A stretch of 64,000 bases of DNA from Parapedobacter luteus (GTDB lineage Bacteria > Bacteroidota > Bacteroidia > Sphingobacteriales > Sphingobacteriaceae), in NCBI RefSeq assembly GCF_900168055.1, contig NZ_FUYS01000001.1:310001-374000 (forward strand), read 5' to 3'. The translations under genes and the position numbers were made by a program. Below the pieces are notes generated by a model, which worked only from the letters and a program-made list of their open reading frames with translations, ran no database searches and was not told where the DNA came from. This document shows positions 2,045-37,381 of this stretch, one piece after another. Position 1 is the stretch's first letter, and every line of letters starts with the position of its first letter.

Positions 2045-2120
2045 GATGAATCCGGGTTTAGCCACCTATGATCCACGTATAAGCCACGTATAATCCACCT
2101 ATCTGCCACGTTTCTCAAGG
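2045..2120. repeat. 11-bp phased tandem array with conserved head (copy 1)
   Basis: The head GATGAATCCGGGTT (from 2045) is followed by the motif CCAC starting at 2062, 2073, 2084, 2095 and 2106, exactly 11 bases apart. Written from 2066 the units are N-TA-N8: CTATGATCCAC, GTATAAGCCAC, GTATAATCCAC, CTATCTGCCAC, then a decayed GTTTCTCAAGG. The period is close to one turn of B-DNA and is not a multiple of three, so it is not coding. A second array with the same head and period lies at 36148-36302. Confidence 0.85.
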
Positions 2121-32584: not shown

Positions 32585-35500
32585 TTATACTTTTTCGATT
32601 AATACGTTCAACTCCCTTTCCGCAATTTCTATGGTATCACCGTTGGCAAGGGTATCCTCAAACATCAAAGAGTCTGCCAATATCTCGGTGCGAATATAAG
32701 ATAAATTAATCTTTGCTGCTTCGGTAATATCGGGGATATCGGTCAGGCGCACGCTAATCCGGTCGGTGACCTCGAACCCGCGTTCTTTACGGAGATTCTG
32801 GATGCGATTGATCAGCTCACGGGCGATACCTTCGTTTCTCAGCTCCGGCGTGATATGGACGTCCAAAGCTACCGTAAGTTTACCCAAATTGGATACCTGC
32901 CATCCGGCGACATCCTCGGCAATAATCTCCACATCGGCTAACAGCACGACATAGGGTGTGCCGGGTATTGCGATTGCTCCTTCACGCTCCAACGTTGCAA
33001 TTTCTTCTGCAGTGAACGCCTGGATGGTAGCAGCCACGGACTTCATGTCTTTGCCTACTTTGGGGCCGAGGGCCTTGAAATTCGGCTTGATTCTTTTTTT
33101 GATGATGCCCGAAGTATCCGTAATAAATTCAATTTCCTTGATATTGGTTTCAGAAAGGACAAGGTCCTTTACTTTTTCGACCTGCCTGCGGAAGTCATCG
33201 TCCAACACGGGAAGCAGGATTTTGTTAAGCGGTTGCCGGACGTTGATGCCGGTTTTTTTGCGTAATGAAAGGGTAAGTGACGATATGTCCTGCGCCAGGG
33301 TCATGCGTTCCTCCAGTGCTTTATCTACCAAGTCTTCGTGGTATGCCGGGAAATCAGCTAAATGTACGGATTCGGCCTGTTCTTTGCCTGTGGCATCGTT
33401 CAGGTCCAGGTACAGCCGATCACTGAAGAATGGCGCGATGGGCGACATCAGCTTCGCAATCGTATCAAGGCACGTGTAGAGTGTTTGATATGCTGAAATC
33501 TTGTCTTCAGTATATTCCCCTTTCCAGAAGCGCCTGCGGCAGAGGCGAACGTACCAATTGCTTAGGTGCTCATCTACAAACGTCTGTATGGCGCGGGCGG
33601 CTTTTGTTGGCTCGAAATCCGCATAGTAGCCATCTACTTCCTGTGTCAGGCTGTTGAGCAACGAGATAATCCAGCGGTCTATCTCCGGCCTGCTGGCAAT
33701 GGGCAGGTCAGGCTCTTGGTAGGCAAATTTGTCGATATTGGCATATAGGGCAAAAAACGCATAGGTATTGTACAACGTGCCGAAAAACTTGCGCCGTACC
33801 TCGTCCAGCCCTTCCTCATTGAACTTAAGGTTGTCCCAAGGGGATGCATTGCTAATCATATACCAACGCGTGGCATCGGCGCTGTATTTTTCGATGGTAG
33901 CGAAGGGGTCAACGGCATTGCCCAGCCGCTTGGACATTTTATTGCCGTTTTTGTCCAATACCAGGCCGTTGGATACCACGTTTTTGAACGCTACGGAATG
34001 CCTGAGCATCGTGGAAATGGCATGCAGGGTAAAAAACCAGCCGCGCGTTTGATCGACACCCTCGGCAATGAAGTCTGCCGGGTATGCCCCCTCAAAACCA
34101 GTTTTGAAAGGCGCATCGTCGCCTTCAGCAAGCTTCTCCTGATCCAACCCCCACTGCGCAAAGGGCATCGCTCCGCTGTCAAACCAGACGTCGATGAGAT
34201 CGGGTTCGCGGTAGAGTTTCTGCCCAGCGTCAGAGACGAGCACGATATCATCCACATACGGCCGGTGGAGGTCCAGCTCATCGGTGCCGAATTTGTGCAA
34301 GTATTCCTGTAGCGTTGTTTTTTCAGCGTCGTTGAGCACGCCCGACGCGAGGCTCTTTTCGATATGGGCCTTCAGTTCGCTTATGGAGCCGATGCAGATC
34401 TCTTCGTTCTCGTCTTCACTGCGCCAAATGGGTAGGGGAGTCCCCCAGAACCGCGAACGCGAAAGGTTCCAGTCAACAAGGTTCTCCAGCCAGTTGCCGA
34501 AGCGGCCCGTGCCCGTGGCTTCAGGCTTCCAATTGATGGTTTTGTTGAGCGCCACCAGCTCATCTTTCGCCGCTGTCGTGCGGATAAACCAGCTATCCAG
34601 TGGGTAGTAAAGTACCGGCTTGTCCGTACGCCAACAATGCGGATAGCTGTGTTCGTATCGTTTGACTTCGAAAGCTTTGTTTTCTTCTTTGAGTTTGATG
34701 GCGATGAGCACATCGGTGGGCTTGAAGCCCTCGGCTGCGCGCTCTTCATCGCTGTAATATTCTTCTTTGACGAAGCGTCCGCCAAATTCGCCGATTTCTT
34801 TGACAAAGCGGCCCCGCTTGTCTACGATGGGGACATCCTTGCCGTTCTCGTCTTTCACAAAAACCCCCGGTACATCGTTTTCTTTGCTTACACGGAAGTC
34901 GTCTGCGCCAAATGTCGCAGATGAGTGTACGATGCCCGTGCCGTCTTCGATGGTCACGAAATCACCTGCGATGACCCGAAAGGCCTTTTGCTCCAATTCT
35001 TCGCTGGAGACATAGGGCAGCAGCTGATGGTACCGGAGATTAAGCAGTTCGGCTCCTAAAAACTCGGCCCTGACTTCCCAAGGAATGATTTTGTCTCCTT
35101 GATTGTAGTCTTTCAATGAAATCGCCTGCCCTTCAGGCTTGAAATACCGGCTTAGCAGTTCCTTCGCCAATACAACGCTCACCGGCTCAAACGTATAGGG
35201 GTTGAAGGTGCGCACTTTGACGTAGCGGATATCCTTGCCCACAACCAGTGCACTGTTGGCAGGCAACGTCCACGGTGTGGTGGTCCAAGCCAGGATGGCG
35301 GTATCCTCGTTTTCATCCTCAAAGAGCATGGCCATGGCCGGGTGTACTTGATCTCTTTTGACCCGAAATTCGGCTACAATGGTTGTGTCCTTCACTGGTC
35401 TGTATGTGCCGGGTTGATTGAGCTCATGCGAGCTAAGGCCCGAACCGGCAGCGGGTGAGTAGGGTTGTATGGTATAACCCTTGTAAAGTAGCCCTTTTTT

Positions 35501-35998
35501 ATACAGCTCTTTTAGTATCCACCACAGCGTCTCGATGTACTCGTTCTTGTAGGTGATGTATGGATTTTGCAAATCCACCCAATAGCCCATTTTTTCGGTA
35601 AGGTCATTCCACACATCGGTATATTTCATGACTTCCCGACGGCAGGCCGCGTTGTAATCGGCTACGGATATGGTCTTGCCGATATCTTCTTTGGTAATGC
35701 CAAGGGTCTTTTCCACAGCCAGCTCGATGGGCAGGCCATGCGTATCCCAGCCTCCTTTGCGCTTTACCTGATAACCCTTGAGGGTCTTGTAGCGGCAAAA
35801 AATATCCTTGATGGCCCTTGCCATGACATGGTGGATGCCCGGCATGCCATTCGCTGAAGGCGGGCCTTCGTAAAAGGTATAGGGCTTGTTGGCCGGACGC
35901 TGCGTGATGCTTTTTTCAAAGATGTGTTCCGTCCGCCAACGATCCAATATTTCCTTGCCGATTTCGGGTAAATTGAGCTGCTTATATTCCTTGTACAT
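32585..35998 (-). CDS. ileS: Isoleucine--tRNA ligase
   Basis: An 1137-residue class I aminoacyl-tRNA synthetase that charges tRNA-Ile. The HIGH-type motif appears as GIHHVMAR after PSANGMPG, and KMSKR lies in GNKMSKRLGN. The editing domain (TWTLPANSALVV region with the threonine-rich TTTPWT) is present. The tail contains a VLLADVEIIAEDVAG-type C-terminal domain, and length is normal for the IleS form lacking the bacterial zinc-binding tail. The ATG at 35998 was chosen over a TTG three bases upstream. It leads an operon with the DksA-like gene and lspA. Confidence 0.96.
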   Translation of the reverse strand: MYKEYKQLNLPEIGKEILDRWRTEHIFEKSITQRPANKPYTFYEGPPSANGMPGIHHVMARAIKDIFCRYKTLKGYQVKRKGGWDTHGLPIELAVEKTLGITKEDIGKTISVADYNAACRREVMKYTDVWNDLTEKMGYWVDLQNPYITYKNEYIETLWWILKELYKKGLLYKGYTIQPYSPAAGSGLSSHELNQPGTYRPVKDTTIVAEFRVKRDQVHPAMAMLFEDENEDTAILAWTTTPWTLPANSALVVGKDIRYVKVRTFNPYTFEPVSVVLAKELLSRYFKPEGQAISLKDYNQGDKIIPWEVRAEFLGAELLNLRYHQLLPYVSSEELEQKAFRVIAGDFVTIEDGTGIVHSSATFGADDFRVSKENDVPGVFVKDENGKDVPIVDKRGRFVKEIGEFGGRFVKEEYYSDEERAAEGFKPTDVLIAIKLKEENKAFEVKRYEHSYPHCWRTDKPVLYYPLDSWFIRTTAAKDELVALNKTINWKPEATGTGRFGNWLENLVDWNLSRSRFWGTPLPIWRSEDENEEICIGSISELKAHIEKSLASGVLNDAEKTTLQEYLHKFGTDELDLHRPYVDDIVLVSDAGQKLYREPDLIDVWFDSGAMPFAQWGLDQEKLAEGDDAPFKTGFEGAYPADFIAEGVDQTRGWFFTLHAISTMLRHSVAFKNVVSNGLVLDKNGNKMSKRLGNAVDPFATIEKYSADATRWYMISNASPWDNLKFNEEGLDEVRRKFFGTLYNTYAFFALYANIDKFAYQEPDLPIASRPEIDRWIISLLNSLTQEVDGYYADFEPTKAARAIQTFVDEHLSNWYVRLCRRRFWKGEYTEDKISAYQTLYTCLDTIAKLMSPIAPFFSDRLYLDLNDATGKEQAESVHLADFPAYHEDLVDKALEERMTLAQDISSLTLSLRKKTGINVRQPLNKILLPVLDDDFRRQVEKVKDLVLSETNIKEIEFITDTSGIIKKRIKPNFKALGPKVGKDMKSVAATIQAFTAEEIATLEREGAIAIPGTPYVVLLADVEIIAEDVAGWQVSNLGKLTVALDVHITPELRNEGIARELINRIQNLRKERGFEVTDRISVRLTDIPDITEAAKINLSYIRTEILADSLMFEDTLANGDTIEIAERELNVLIEKV

Positions 35999-36027
35999 CA
36001 ATTGTTTGTATTCGAAAAATGAGGATG

Positions 36028-36035
36028 CAAAGATA
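36028..36035 (-). promoter_or_regulatory. Candidate -7 element (TATCTTTG) of ileS
   Basis: On the minus strand TATCTTTG is a perfect TANNTTTG match 29 bases before the ileS ATG; the upstream element is TTT instead of TTG at the 19-base distance. Confidence 0.55.
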
Positions 36036-36147
36036 GCGAATTAGTATGAAAGGAAAAAGAAAGGTTTGATTCGCGCGGTTGCTCCCCAGCTGGAATCGTT
36101 CGCTTTATTCTCTTTCTTAACGTTTGTCTGTGCTAGCCTGGATAACC

Positions 36148-36302
36148 GATGGATCCGGGTTACCGTTGGGTTACCGCAGCGCTACCTTTCCGTTACCCTG
36201 TTGGTAAGGAAAAGGTAAGGAAAAGGTAAGGAAAAGGTAAGGAAAGGGTAAGGAAGAAATAAACAAGAGGTAAGGAACCGGTAAAAGATGGGTAAAAAAA
36301 AA
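36148..36302. repeat. 11-bp phased TA-step array, inverted halves (copy 2)
   Basis: After the head GATGGATCCGGGTT come 13 consecutive 11-bp units (36160-36302), each with TA at positions 2-3. The first four are TTACC-type (TTACCGTTGGG, TTACCGCAGCG, CTACCTTTCCG, TTACCCTGTTG); from 36204 they switch to GTAAGG-type (GTAAGGAAAAG three times in a row, then variants). GGTAA is the complement of TTACC, so the two halves are inverted with no break in the 11-bp phase. Not coding; a phased bendable or protein-binding array is the simplest reading. Confidence 0.88.
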
Positions 36303-36397
36303 CTAACGATCGTGTAGCCCGTTATATGACAAAACCGCCAAAAGGTGCTATGCAAGCTGTATTGGCGGTGGTAGTTTCAATGGTTAAAGCGGCGGTA

Positions 36398-36751
36398 TTA
36401 CGCCGAAAAAGACGACCCGCAGCCACAGGTGCTTGAAGCATTCGGATTGTTGAAGGTAAAGCCACGGGCATCCAAGCCACTCCGGAAGTCAATCTCCATG
36501 CCCGCGAGGTAGAGGCCATGTGCTTTATTCATGAAAATACGTATCCCTTCGATATTGTATTCCGAATCGCCTTCTTTCTTTTGGTCAAATCCCAATATAT
36601 AATTCATTCCGGCACATCCACCGCCTTCAACGCCTACTCGCAATCCGAAATCATCCGAGATTTCCTGTTGTTCTTTCAACTTTTTAAGCTCCTTGATAGC
36701 GCCTGGTGTCAAGGTCAATGGTGCCGTCGGTGAAAGTGTTGCTGTGCTCAT
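36398..36751 (-). CDS. HesB/IscA-family iron-sulfur cluster assembly protein
   Basis: A 117-residue A-type carrier protein. It has the three conserved cysteines: one in GGGCAGMNYI and two in the C-terminal CGCG (ASSTCGCGSSF). A-type carriers pass Fe-S clusters to target proteins. It is single, with no isc or suf genes next to it. Divergent from the gene at 36854, with a -7-like element at 36782. Confidence 0.93.
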   Translation of the reverse strand: MSTATLSPTAPLTLTPGAIKELKKLKEQQEISDDFGLRVGVEGGGCAGMNYILGFDQKKEGDSEYNIEGIRIFMNKAHGLYLAGMEIDFRSGLDARGFTFNNPNASSTCGCGSSFSA

Positions 36752-36781
36752 CTTCGTTGCAATTAATTAAATTCAAACACA

Positions 36782-36789
36782 CAAAAATA
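36782..36789 (-). promoter_or_regulatory. Candidate -7 element (TATTTTTG) of the HesB/IscA gene
   Basis: On the minus strand TATTTTTG matches TANNTTTG, 30 bases before the ATG (36751). No TTG at 19 bases. Confidence 0.45.
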
Positions 36790-36853
36790 CATAAAATTCT
36801 ACACTTTTGCAGGATGATGTGGATTTTGACGTTCCATAAACAAACGACAACTC

Positions 36854-37381
36854 ATGGATATTGCACTATTCTTAACTGATCTCACCAAATACGTCTTGGC
36901 CGGATGCTTGGTGATGGGCGTAGCAAACTGGATGTTTTGGACGAAATACAACAGTCATGTTTTTCGGCTTAAAATGTTGGAGGCAGGGCATGCGGCGAGG
37001 AAGGAACTACAGCCTTTGCGGCTGCAGGCCTATGAGCGGCTGGTGCTGTTTGTCGAACGCATCGCGCCGGCGAATATGTTGCTGCGGCTGCACGAACCCG
37101 GGCTGGATGCCGAAGCTTTTCAGCACCTGTTGGTCAGCGAAATACGTGCTGAATATCAGCACAATATCACCCAACAGTTGTATGTGAGCACTGCAGCATG
37201 GGCGGTCACCAAGCAACTCAAGCAGCGCACCGTGGCACTCATCCGCAATGCGGCAGCGGGACTGCCAGCTAACGCGGACGCAAAAGAACTCAGCACGGTA
37301 ATCCTTGAACACATCAACACCCTGGACGAAAATCCGTATGACCTGGCACTTAAAGCCATCAAAAGTGAGCTCGAACGTTGA
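36854..37381 (+). CDS. Uncharacterised single-span protein (conserved in Bacteroidota)
   Basis: A 175-residue protein with one N-terminal membrane helix (TKYVLAGCLVMGVANWMFW) and a long helical cytoplasmic domain (EAGHAARKELQPLRLQAYERLVLFVERI). The motif of a helix followed by LQAYERLVLFVERI is familiar from a DUF-type Bacteroidota family of unknown function. It ends 60 bases before glyA; the glyA promoter overlaps its last codons, so the two are probably transcribed separately. Confidence 0.75.
   Translation: MDIALFLTDLTKYVLAGCLVMGVANWMFWTKYNSHVFRLKMLEAGHAARKELQPLRLQAYERLVLFVERIAPANMLLRLHEPGLDAEAFQHLLVSEIRAEYQHNITQQLYVSTAAWAVTKQLKQRTVALIRNAAAGLPANADAKELSTVILEHINTLDENPYDLALKAIKSELER

Follow-up and report, generated by a model that had tools for sequence, protein, structure and literature searches.

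The ileS–iscA gap

The window, by which we mean the whole 64,000-nucleotide stretch of the Parapedobacter luteus genome analysed here, carries genes for an isoleucyl-tRNA synthetase (ileS) and an A-type Fe-S carrier (iscA-like), and the gap of about 400 bp between them holds the array that is the subject of this report (Table 1). The ileS ORF as listed starts from a TTG at 36001; here and below, gene names come from Pfam for nine proteins and were otherwise read by eye. A lag scan of the window finds TA at every eleventh base pair through 15 units in a row (36161–36315), the array as a whole spanning about 36157–36321. A 15-fold run of this kind is expected about 1.6×10−15 times per 64 kb (TA frequency 0.0496, independent letters), and for every other lag between 7 and 24 the longest TA run in the 64 kb is at most four, save at lag 22, which recovers the same array.

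The first four units are of the TTACC or CTACC type and the 11 that follow are mostly GGTAAGG, the reverse-complement type, with degeneracy growing toward the distal end of the long arm; TRF picks up only the homogeneous part (36203–36277). The step across the switch, from the TA at 36194 to that at 36205, is again 11 bp, so that the inversion leaves the register intact. A first-pass annotation had read both the order of the two unit types and the constancy of the TA phase correctly. Its symmetric, unbroken run of 11 bp units also stands, although the units number 15 and not 13, the limits given above replace 36148–36302, and the centre lies at about 36200, between the two TAs that flank the switch, rather than at 36203. 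Elsewhere in the window (2060–2111), TRF reports a further 11 bp array of about 4.7 units with a CCACSTAT core and a lag-11 similarity of 0.61, which appears to be intergenic as far as it has been read.

Table 1. Features of the ileS–iscA gap (window coordinates) and arrays of the same type in the genome (units in short arm + long arm; C, contig handle)
Feature	Location	Strand	Basis or remarks
ileS, isoleucyl-tRNA synthetase, on short-arm side	32585–35998	−	PF00133, PF08264; ATG at 35998
TATCTTTG box, candidate −7 element of ileS	36028–36035	−	Sequence; also in sister loci
Short arm, 4 units × 11 bp, TTACC/CTACC type	36157–36200		TA at 36161, 36172, 36183, 36194
Dyad, centre ~36200	36196–36204		Units change orientation; TA steps remain at 11 bp
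Long arm, 11 units × 11 bp, GGTAAGGAA type	36201–36321		TA from 36205 to 36315
Hairpin then TTTTG, terminator-like, downstream of iscA-like gene	36334–36369	−	RNA fold
A-type Fe-S carrier (iscA-like), on long-arm side	36398–36751	−	PF01521
Array 4+11	Window		ileS/iscA gap
Array 4+18	C7		Upstream of gene read by eye as glmS
Array 4+18	C10		Site with HTH_17/MerR gene
Array 4+25	C16:4 kb		
Array 3+21	C15		Upstream of gene with six S1 domains, taken as rpsA
Array 3+18	C17		Flanked by ribD and prmC (genes named by eye)

The array had been described as lying directly upstream of the ileS promoter. It is 158 bp from the ATG and about 120 bp from the TATCTTTG box, which matches what we take to be the −7 consensus of the Bacteroidota, so the description is only roughly true. 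A special link with ileS is doubtful: among nine congeners, three (G002, G007 and G008) have no array in the ileS/iscA gap and yet a readable box, so that the array is not a required part of the ileS promoter, and the other copies adjoin other genes. By eye, sister species have a segment of some 85 nt (GATTC..GCAGACGAAACCTAGGAATCGG..) between the array and ileS, in locus L157 and similarly in L155; it is degenerate near 36066–36110 of the window, is present in two copies in G005, and resembles a separate repeat or structured element.

As RNA, the window element folds in an ordinary way (z-score −0.65), and a search of Rfam with 35900–36900 gave two matches only, both far under the gathering score. 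The hairpin beside the iscA-like gene has a z-score of −1.70, with 14 of 200 shuffles folding equally well or better. It is extremely improbable that the array works at the RNA level, as a bidirectional terminator or as a Rho-loading site with a G-poor TTACC strand. The short-arm units do contain only about 10 % G, terminator-like hairpins adjoin some arrays (partly by eye), and one element of the second motif type described below (L203, in G001) folds well (z −2.95); against these stand the fold of the window element itself, the G in the pyrimidine arm of the second family and the exact 11 bp phasing, which is unexpected for an RNA signal.

Copies, arms and core

A search of the genome for three GGTAA motifs in register gave 13 matches in four elements and none in the reversed control. 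R1, a sequence-only model built from those four arrays, finds six elements, each of 15–29 units in two orientations, all with the 11 bp register running through the switch and a short arm of three or four units (Table 1). In a draw of nearest relatives R1 matches 7 of 41 genomes, these being its own, five congeners and one of another genus, and none of the 16 genomes from other families; in a draw from the family it matches 25 of 201 genomes in 4 of 25 genera, both draws having used stricter filters under which weak matches are lost. Six of nine members of the genus have the GGTAA type by R1 and three do not, and G007 has neither this type nor the second one (models R1 and R2); the array system is thus not required in the genus. 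The first-pass annotation, which would have taken a lack of other copies as a sign of slippage, is borne out in this respect by the six copies in the genome and by more in related species.

In a pattern scan of GTDB (55 stretches), arrays with two arms turned up in Parapedobacter, Olivibacter, Niastella and a Pedobacter MAG, and many other taxa gave satellites in a single orientation or short matches. Several Pedobacter loci (L088, L089, L095, L105 and L120) have TTTACC arrays broken by a common block like CTGTACACCAAGTTAACCC. In the last 900 bp upstream of ileS and rpsA (30 loci for each gene, 30 of 39 matches, three in each set of 30 being from Parapedobacter), a lag-11 similarity of at least 0.56 occurs in other genera at 1 of 27 ileS loci (L245, weak) and at 0 of 27 rpsA loci. 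Searches of viral contigs matched 9 and 82 stretches (80 of the 82 listed), with no two-armed array among the four longest of the TA type and the 14 longest of the CG type. Searches of the open-licence literature brought up no paper that seems to describe two-armed 11 bp arrays of this sort.

Flanking proteins place an array at the ileS/iscA site in G000, G003, G004 and G006, and by the iscA side in G005; three species have one at the ribD/prmC site, and four at the site of the HTH gene. Wherever it can be read (four species at ileS, three at ribD/prmC and four at the HTH-gene site), the arrays are oriented alike with respect to their neighbours, the G005 ileS array being too symmetric for a call. 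Neighbours of the arrays include ileS and rpsA and, by eye, dnaK, glmS and clpC. The number of units differs between orthologous sites. In G004 two recently duplicated arrays lie within a 1.6 kb duplication of 93 % identity; the difference between them amounts to one whole unit plus letters outside GGTA, their short arms being identical.

In L124, L130, L135–L137 and L149 the array has a small HTH_17/MerR-like gene at its distal end, and DUF6266 genes, and a LytTR regulator with a histidine kinase, lie near some of these genes; in G004 the array and the HTH gene are present in three copies. The product of this adjacent gene (C10 site) is not supported as the binder of the array: five of the nine genus genomes match the gene, G002 and G006 have arrays and no gene match, and G007 has the gene and no array in the 3.3 kb examined. 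Nor is a constant orientation to replication supported. The long arm is on the negative 20 kb GC-skew strand in 20 of 28 GGTAA loci (31 examined, orthologues counted separately, with L133, L134 and L150 dropped as too degenerate), and the 20 loci of G001 divide 11 to 8 with one tie, which is not consistent.

Arm sizes and core conservation were counted in 25 of 31 loci, orthologues again being treated as separate; the other six (L133, L134, L149, L150, L152 and L153) are short, degenerate or register-shifted. The short arm has four units in 11 arrays, three in six, five in five, and two, six and seven in the others, so that 22 of the 25 fall between three and five; the long arm has 9–25 units in 24 arrays and five in the nearly symmetric L148. 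Several long arms carry a variant block near the distal end (AGTAAG..A G.ACTAAG). Across 381 long-arm units G is found at position −2 in 85 % and at −1 in 92 %. Unit pairs within an array mismatch at these two positions in 0.26 and 0.15 of cases, compared with 0.46–0.67 at positions −4, −3, 3, 4 and 5, 37 % at position 2 and 29 % at position 6; variation is therefore not spread evenly over the unit (0.29–0.67 outside GGTA, 0.15–0.26 at GG). TA was the selection criterion for units and takes no part in this evidence. Alignment of the copies, which the first-pass annotation had proposed, thus shows the GG before TA to be far more conserved than most spacer letters, and this is a poor fit to plain slippage.

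The same annotation had held that a period varying freely between strains would favour slippage, and here the outcome differs inside and outside the genus. The 25 loci of the genus have 506 TA steps, of which 471 measure 11 bp and 17 measure 10 or 12; 12 loci have at least one step of 10, 12, 21 or 23. Outside it (the 15 of 18 loci, L290–L307, that are long enough), 11 bp accounts for 110 of 161 steps and 10 or 12 for 39, with at least one step of 10, 12, 21 or 23 in 13 of the 15 loci; in L299 steps of 10 and 12 alternate. A strict register therefore marks Parapedobacter more than it does the family as a whole. A lag scan of stretches picked mostly around arrays gave 33 matches at lag 11 and 0–3 at each other lag from 5 to 21, and outside the picked arrays about five lag-11 matches are left, a slight excess only. 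Other 11 bp periodic stretches, with CTGAC/CAGAC-like cores, are seen at about 8034–8140 of L144 and 10057–10140 of L133.

We consider a plain 11 bp slippage minisatellite with one accidental inversion to be already disfavoured, and very improbable. It would explain the differing unit numbers at orthologous sites, higher-order duplications of units such as those in L145, and the one-orientation 11 bp arrays of unrelated bacteria and viral contigs, but not the recurrence of the same inverted layout many times over, the contrast between core and spacer, or the steps held at 11 bp in the genus. That the array is a DNA-binding one and not a microsatellite, as had been proposed from the window, gains indirect support from the six copies, the steps that stay at 11 bp in the genus as unit number varies, the conservation of GG and the shared sites; the looser steps outside the genus count against it.

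A second core in the same design

The ileS/iscA gap of G001 contains TTCG units, a palindromic centre and then CGAA units at 11 bp steps, and this genome holds about 20 such elements. The 20 that have flanks show, by counts of TTCG/CGAA matches, arms of 3–7 and 9–14 units, with one of 6+6. A common core is present in 19 (all except L221), and the alignment of these shows no variation in the C and G of CGAA at each eleventh long-arm position, nor in GCAA and TTGC at the centre; the centre is irregular, with CG steps spaced 10, 22 and 10 in the clearest cases. At five of the 20 loci (L203, L206, L207, L213 and L217) a long ORF, which we take to be spurious or to have a later start, overlaps the array.

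A model of this type (R2) matches 17 of 121 genomes in 7 of 25 genera of the family. These include G002, G004, G005, G006 and G022, all of which also have the GGTAA type; G000, G003 and G007 give no R2 match. Among 18 R2 loci examined the switch measures 11 bp in nine (e.g. L312, with 10+10 units, and L327), 10 in three and 22 in two, and the other four lack a clear two-armed layout. In the genome of the window, one element (L038, on C7) has TACC units that run into CGG units with the register unchanged, and in G193 (L306) a third core, CTATC/GATAG, forms a regular inverted array of 4+4 units of 11 bp. Contigs C8 and C9 of G193 also give model matches.

When the ORFs of the 20 G001 loci were compared with those of 31 GGTAA-type loci, with dnaK read by eye, three G001 elements proved to occupy gaps that hold GGTAA arrays elsewhere: those at ileS/iscA, upstream of dnaK (G002) and upstream of rpsA (G000 and G003). 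About 0.1 shared sites are expected by chance, a rough estimate that takes some 15 GGTAA sites and the 20 of G001 and assumes 3,500 intergenic spaces. Two further pairs (L220/L147 and L210/L138) have neighbouring genes in common but not the gap. Between the two motif families the gene on the long-arm side is the same at rpsA and different at ileS and dnaK, so polarity toward a gene is not a conserved feature. There is a hint, with contig ends and the intergenic constraint handled roughly, that the G001 copies are more even than random. The spacing of 21 copies has a coefficient of variation of 0.57, where simulations average 0.88 and give so low a value in 2.0 % of cases, the smallest gap of 41.8 kb is reached in 0.2 % of simulations, and inclusion of a 22nd copy (C16:530 kb) gives 0.55 (1.0 %).

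Because the G001 copies are alike and have a common core, the main rival to a protein-binding array is a non-autonomous dispersed repeat (MITE-like or REP-like), in which the layout would be a relic of the founder and no host protein would be needed. A precedent is BrickBuilt, which is intergenic and multicopy, with 23 nt tandem units, a leader and a tail (PMC4596501); the roughly 20 similar copies in G001 and the element duplicated within the 1.6 kb segment of G004 fit this as well. We nevertheless think it unlikely. In the 50 bp flanks of the 20 G001 copies, to which the flank statistics apply (termini of the GGTAA family were judged by eye only), the longest inverted match averages 5.70, against 5.39 between different copies, and the longest direct match 5.15 against 5.46, with no excess. 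Orthologous sites and orientation are moreover kept across species, the core is conserved above the spacer, and two motifs are found at the same three sites.

A putative binding protein and known systems

The first-pass annotation had also suggested DNA bending, which is not borne out. In 25 arrays, compared with 150 window stretches and with 150 column permutations each (roll, twist and bendability scales), intrinsic curvature has a mean percentile against the 11-column-permuted arrays of 0.17 by roll periodicity and 0.35 by curvature; on one bendability scale the arrays stand higher, at 0.79 relative to the permuted arrays and 0.99 relative to the window. These results bear on the idea that the arrays are strong topoisomerase (gyrase) sites, whose phased arms round a dyad would aid wrapping near highly expressed genes. 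In E. coli the gyrase motif has dyad symmetry and arms with a GC period of 10.75 bp (PMC6379681), and the neighbours named above, ileS and rpsA and by eye dnaK, glmS and clpC, would suit such a role. Two of the three bend models, however, give the real column order no advantage, the conservation of the GG and CGAA letters seems too sharp to be explained by wrapping alone, and the motif, at 130 bp with a 36 bp centre between its periodic arms, contrasts with arrays of up to 319 bp whose register crosses the centre. A gyrase site is accordingly quite improbable.

We favour the reading, with a probability of about one in two, that the array is a series of sites, set out as two opposed runs about the dyad, which a putative sequence-specific, oligomerizing DNA-binding protein would contact once per turn. 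A core of 4–5 bp per turn followed by a loose spacer is as one recognition helix per turn would leave it, and two opposed blocks of units suggest two opposed runs of subunits that meet at the dyad. The predicted protein would make one base-specific contact, with GGTA(A) or about 4–5 bp, in each helical turn; successive subunits would stack on one face of the DNA, and the dyad would set their orientation such that they point away along both arms, the short one nearly fixed at 3–5 sites and the long one variable at about 9–25. Array length would change by whole 11 bp units, while selection would hold the core letters, the register and the short arm. The CGAA core in the same design suggests that the recognized letters can be exchanged while the geometry stays. 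With copies between genes round the chromosome, the role would probably be architectural, in a nucleoid or supercoil domain or in something akin to segregation, and not that of a single-gene switch. The looser spacing outside the genus (110 of 161 steps) lowers our confidence in the protein-array reading, and the near-identical G001 cores would also suit the recent spread of a repeat family.

A special case of this putative protein array would be a set of centromere-like or partition iterons (ParR/parC or RHH-ParB/parS) acting in chromosome segregation. R1 ParR binds 11 bp repeats and needs at least two of them (PMC9426499), pSM19035 parS requires a minimum of four contiguous heptads and works in spite of changes of orientation (PMC9499535), and the pSM19035 RHH protein binds direct and inverted repeats equally and wraps DNA (PMC5016525); four units is also the commonest size of the short arm (11 of 25). 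The arrays, though, are dispersed in six to about 20 copies instead of at a single locus, their orientation is two-block and not mixed, no par gene was read by eye among the nearest ORFs, and two arrays queried against a plasmid collection gave no match, a weak result since simple, low-complexity repeats were filtered. We regard a partition role as distinctly unlikely. More tentatively, and as a possibility only, the oligomerizing-protein reading may extend to an undescribed class of Bacteroidota chromosomal architectural sites, polar and dyad-centred, in which a filament would nucleate at the dyad and extend outward. Such sites would be spaced along the chromosome, as the evenness of the G001 copies hints, and would have kept their places and geometry as the core was exchanged between lineages (GGTA, CGAA, perhaps GATAGG).

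The DNA-binding domains of CarH and of OmpR/SARP-type regulators are winged helices. CarH binds tandem 11 bp repeats on one face of the DNA (PMC9304148) and AfsR binds two 11 bp repeats (PMC10936776), and operators of the CarH/CarA and OmpR/SARP kinds resemble the Parapedobacter arrays in their 11 bp period and in a short conserved core per unit. The CarH and AfsR operators described there have two to five repeats in one orientation and lie at a promoter, whereas the arrays are multicopy, have 15–29 units in two opposed blocks and overlap no recognized promoter. The pSM19035 parS and R1 parC sites likewise consist of contiguous repeats in register within which orientation may change; they serve plasmid partition, with a period of 7 or 11 and mixed or single orientation, while the arrays are two-block and number 6–20 per chromosome. 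BrickBuilt of Porphyromonas gingivalis shares with the arrays a host in the Bacteroidota as well as its intergenic, multicopy, tandem nature, but its tandem unit is about twice as long, its leader and tail have small inverted ends, and no two-armed 11 bp register is described in the available part of the paper (PMC4596501); the G001 flanks have no terminal repeats. In the E. coli gyrase motif and the Mu SGS the dyad with helically phased arms is as in the arrays, although there the 36 bp centre lies between two 47 bp arms with a degenerate GC wave (PMC6379681).

One phage locus also shows an 11 bp spacing. In L388 (419–496) CCGAAC repeats, which resemble replication iterons and presumably form a replication origin, recur in one orientation inside a gene that matches a DnaD-like helicase loader (phrog_1701), that is, at one locus and within a gene, in contrast to the arrays.

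The array is thus like an iteron or tandem-operator array, yet it lacks a defining feature of most of the named families tested, namely repeat number and promoter position for CarH/OmpR, the centre for gyrase, and termini and unit length for BrickBuilt. Its geometry is clean, with one core per turn, a nearly fixed short arm, a variable long arm and an exchangeable core. If it is only a repeat family, a helical register kept through an inversion would still be unusual. If a protein reads these strips, the Sphingobacteriaceae would have a dispersed site system unlike the partition, operator and gyrase systems compared here, and the different cores at the same intergenic positions in sister species would make protein–DNA co-evolution directly testable.
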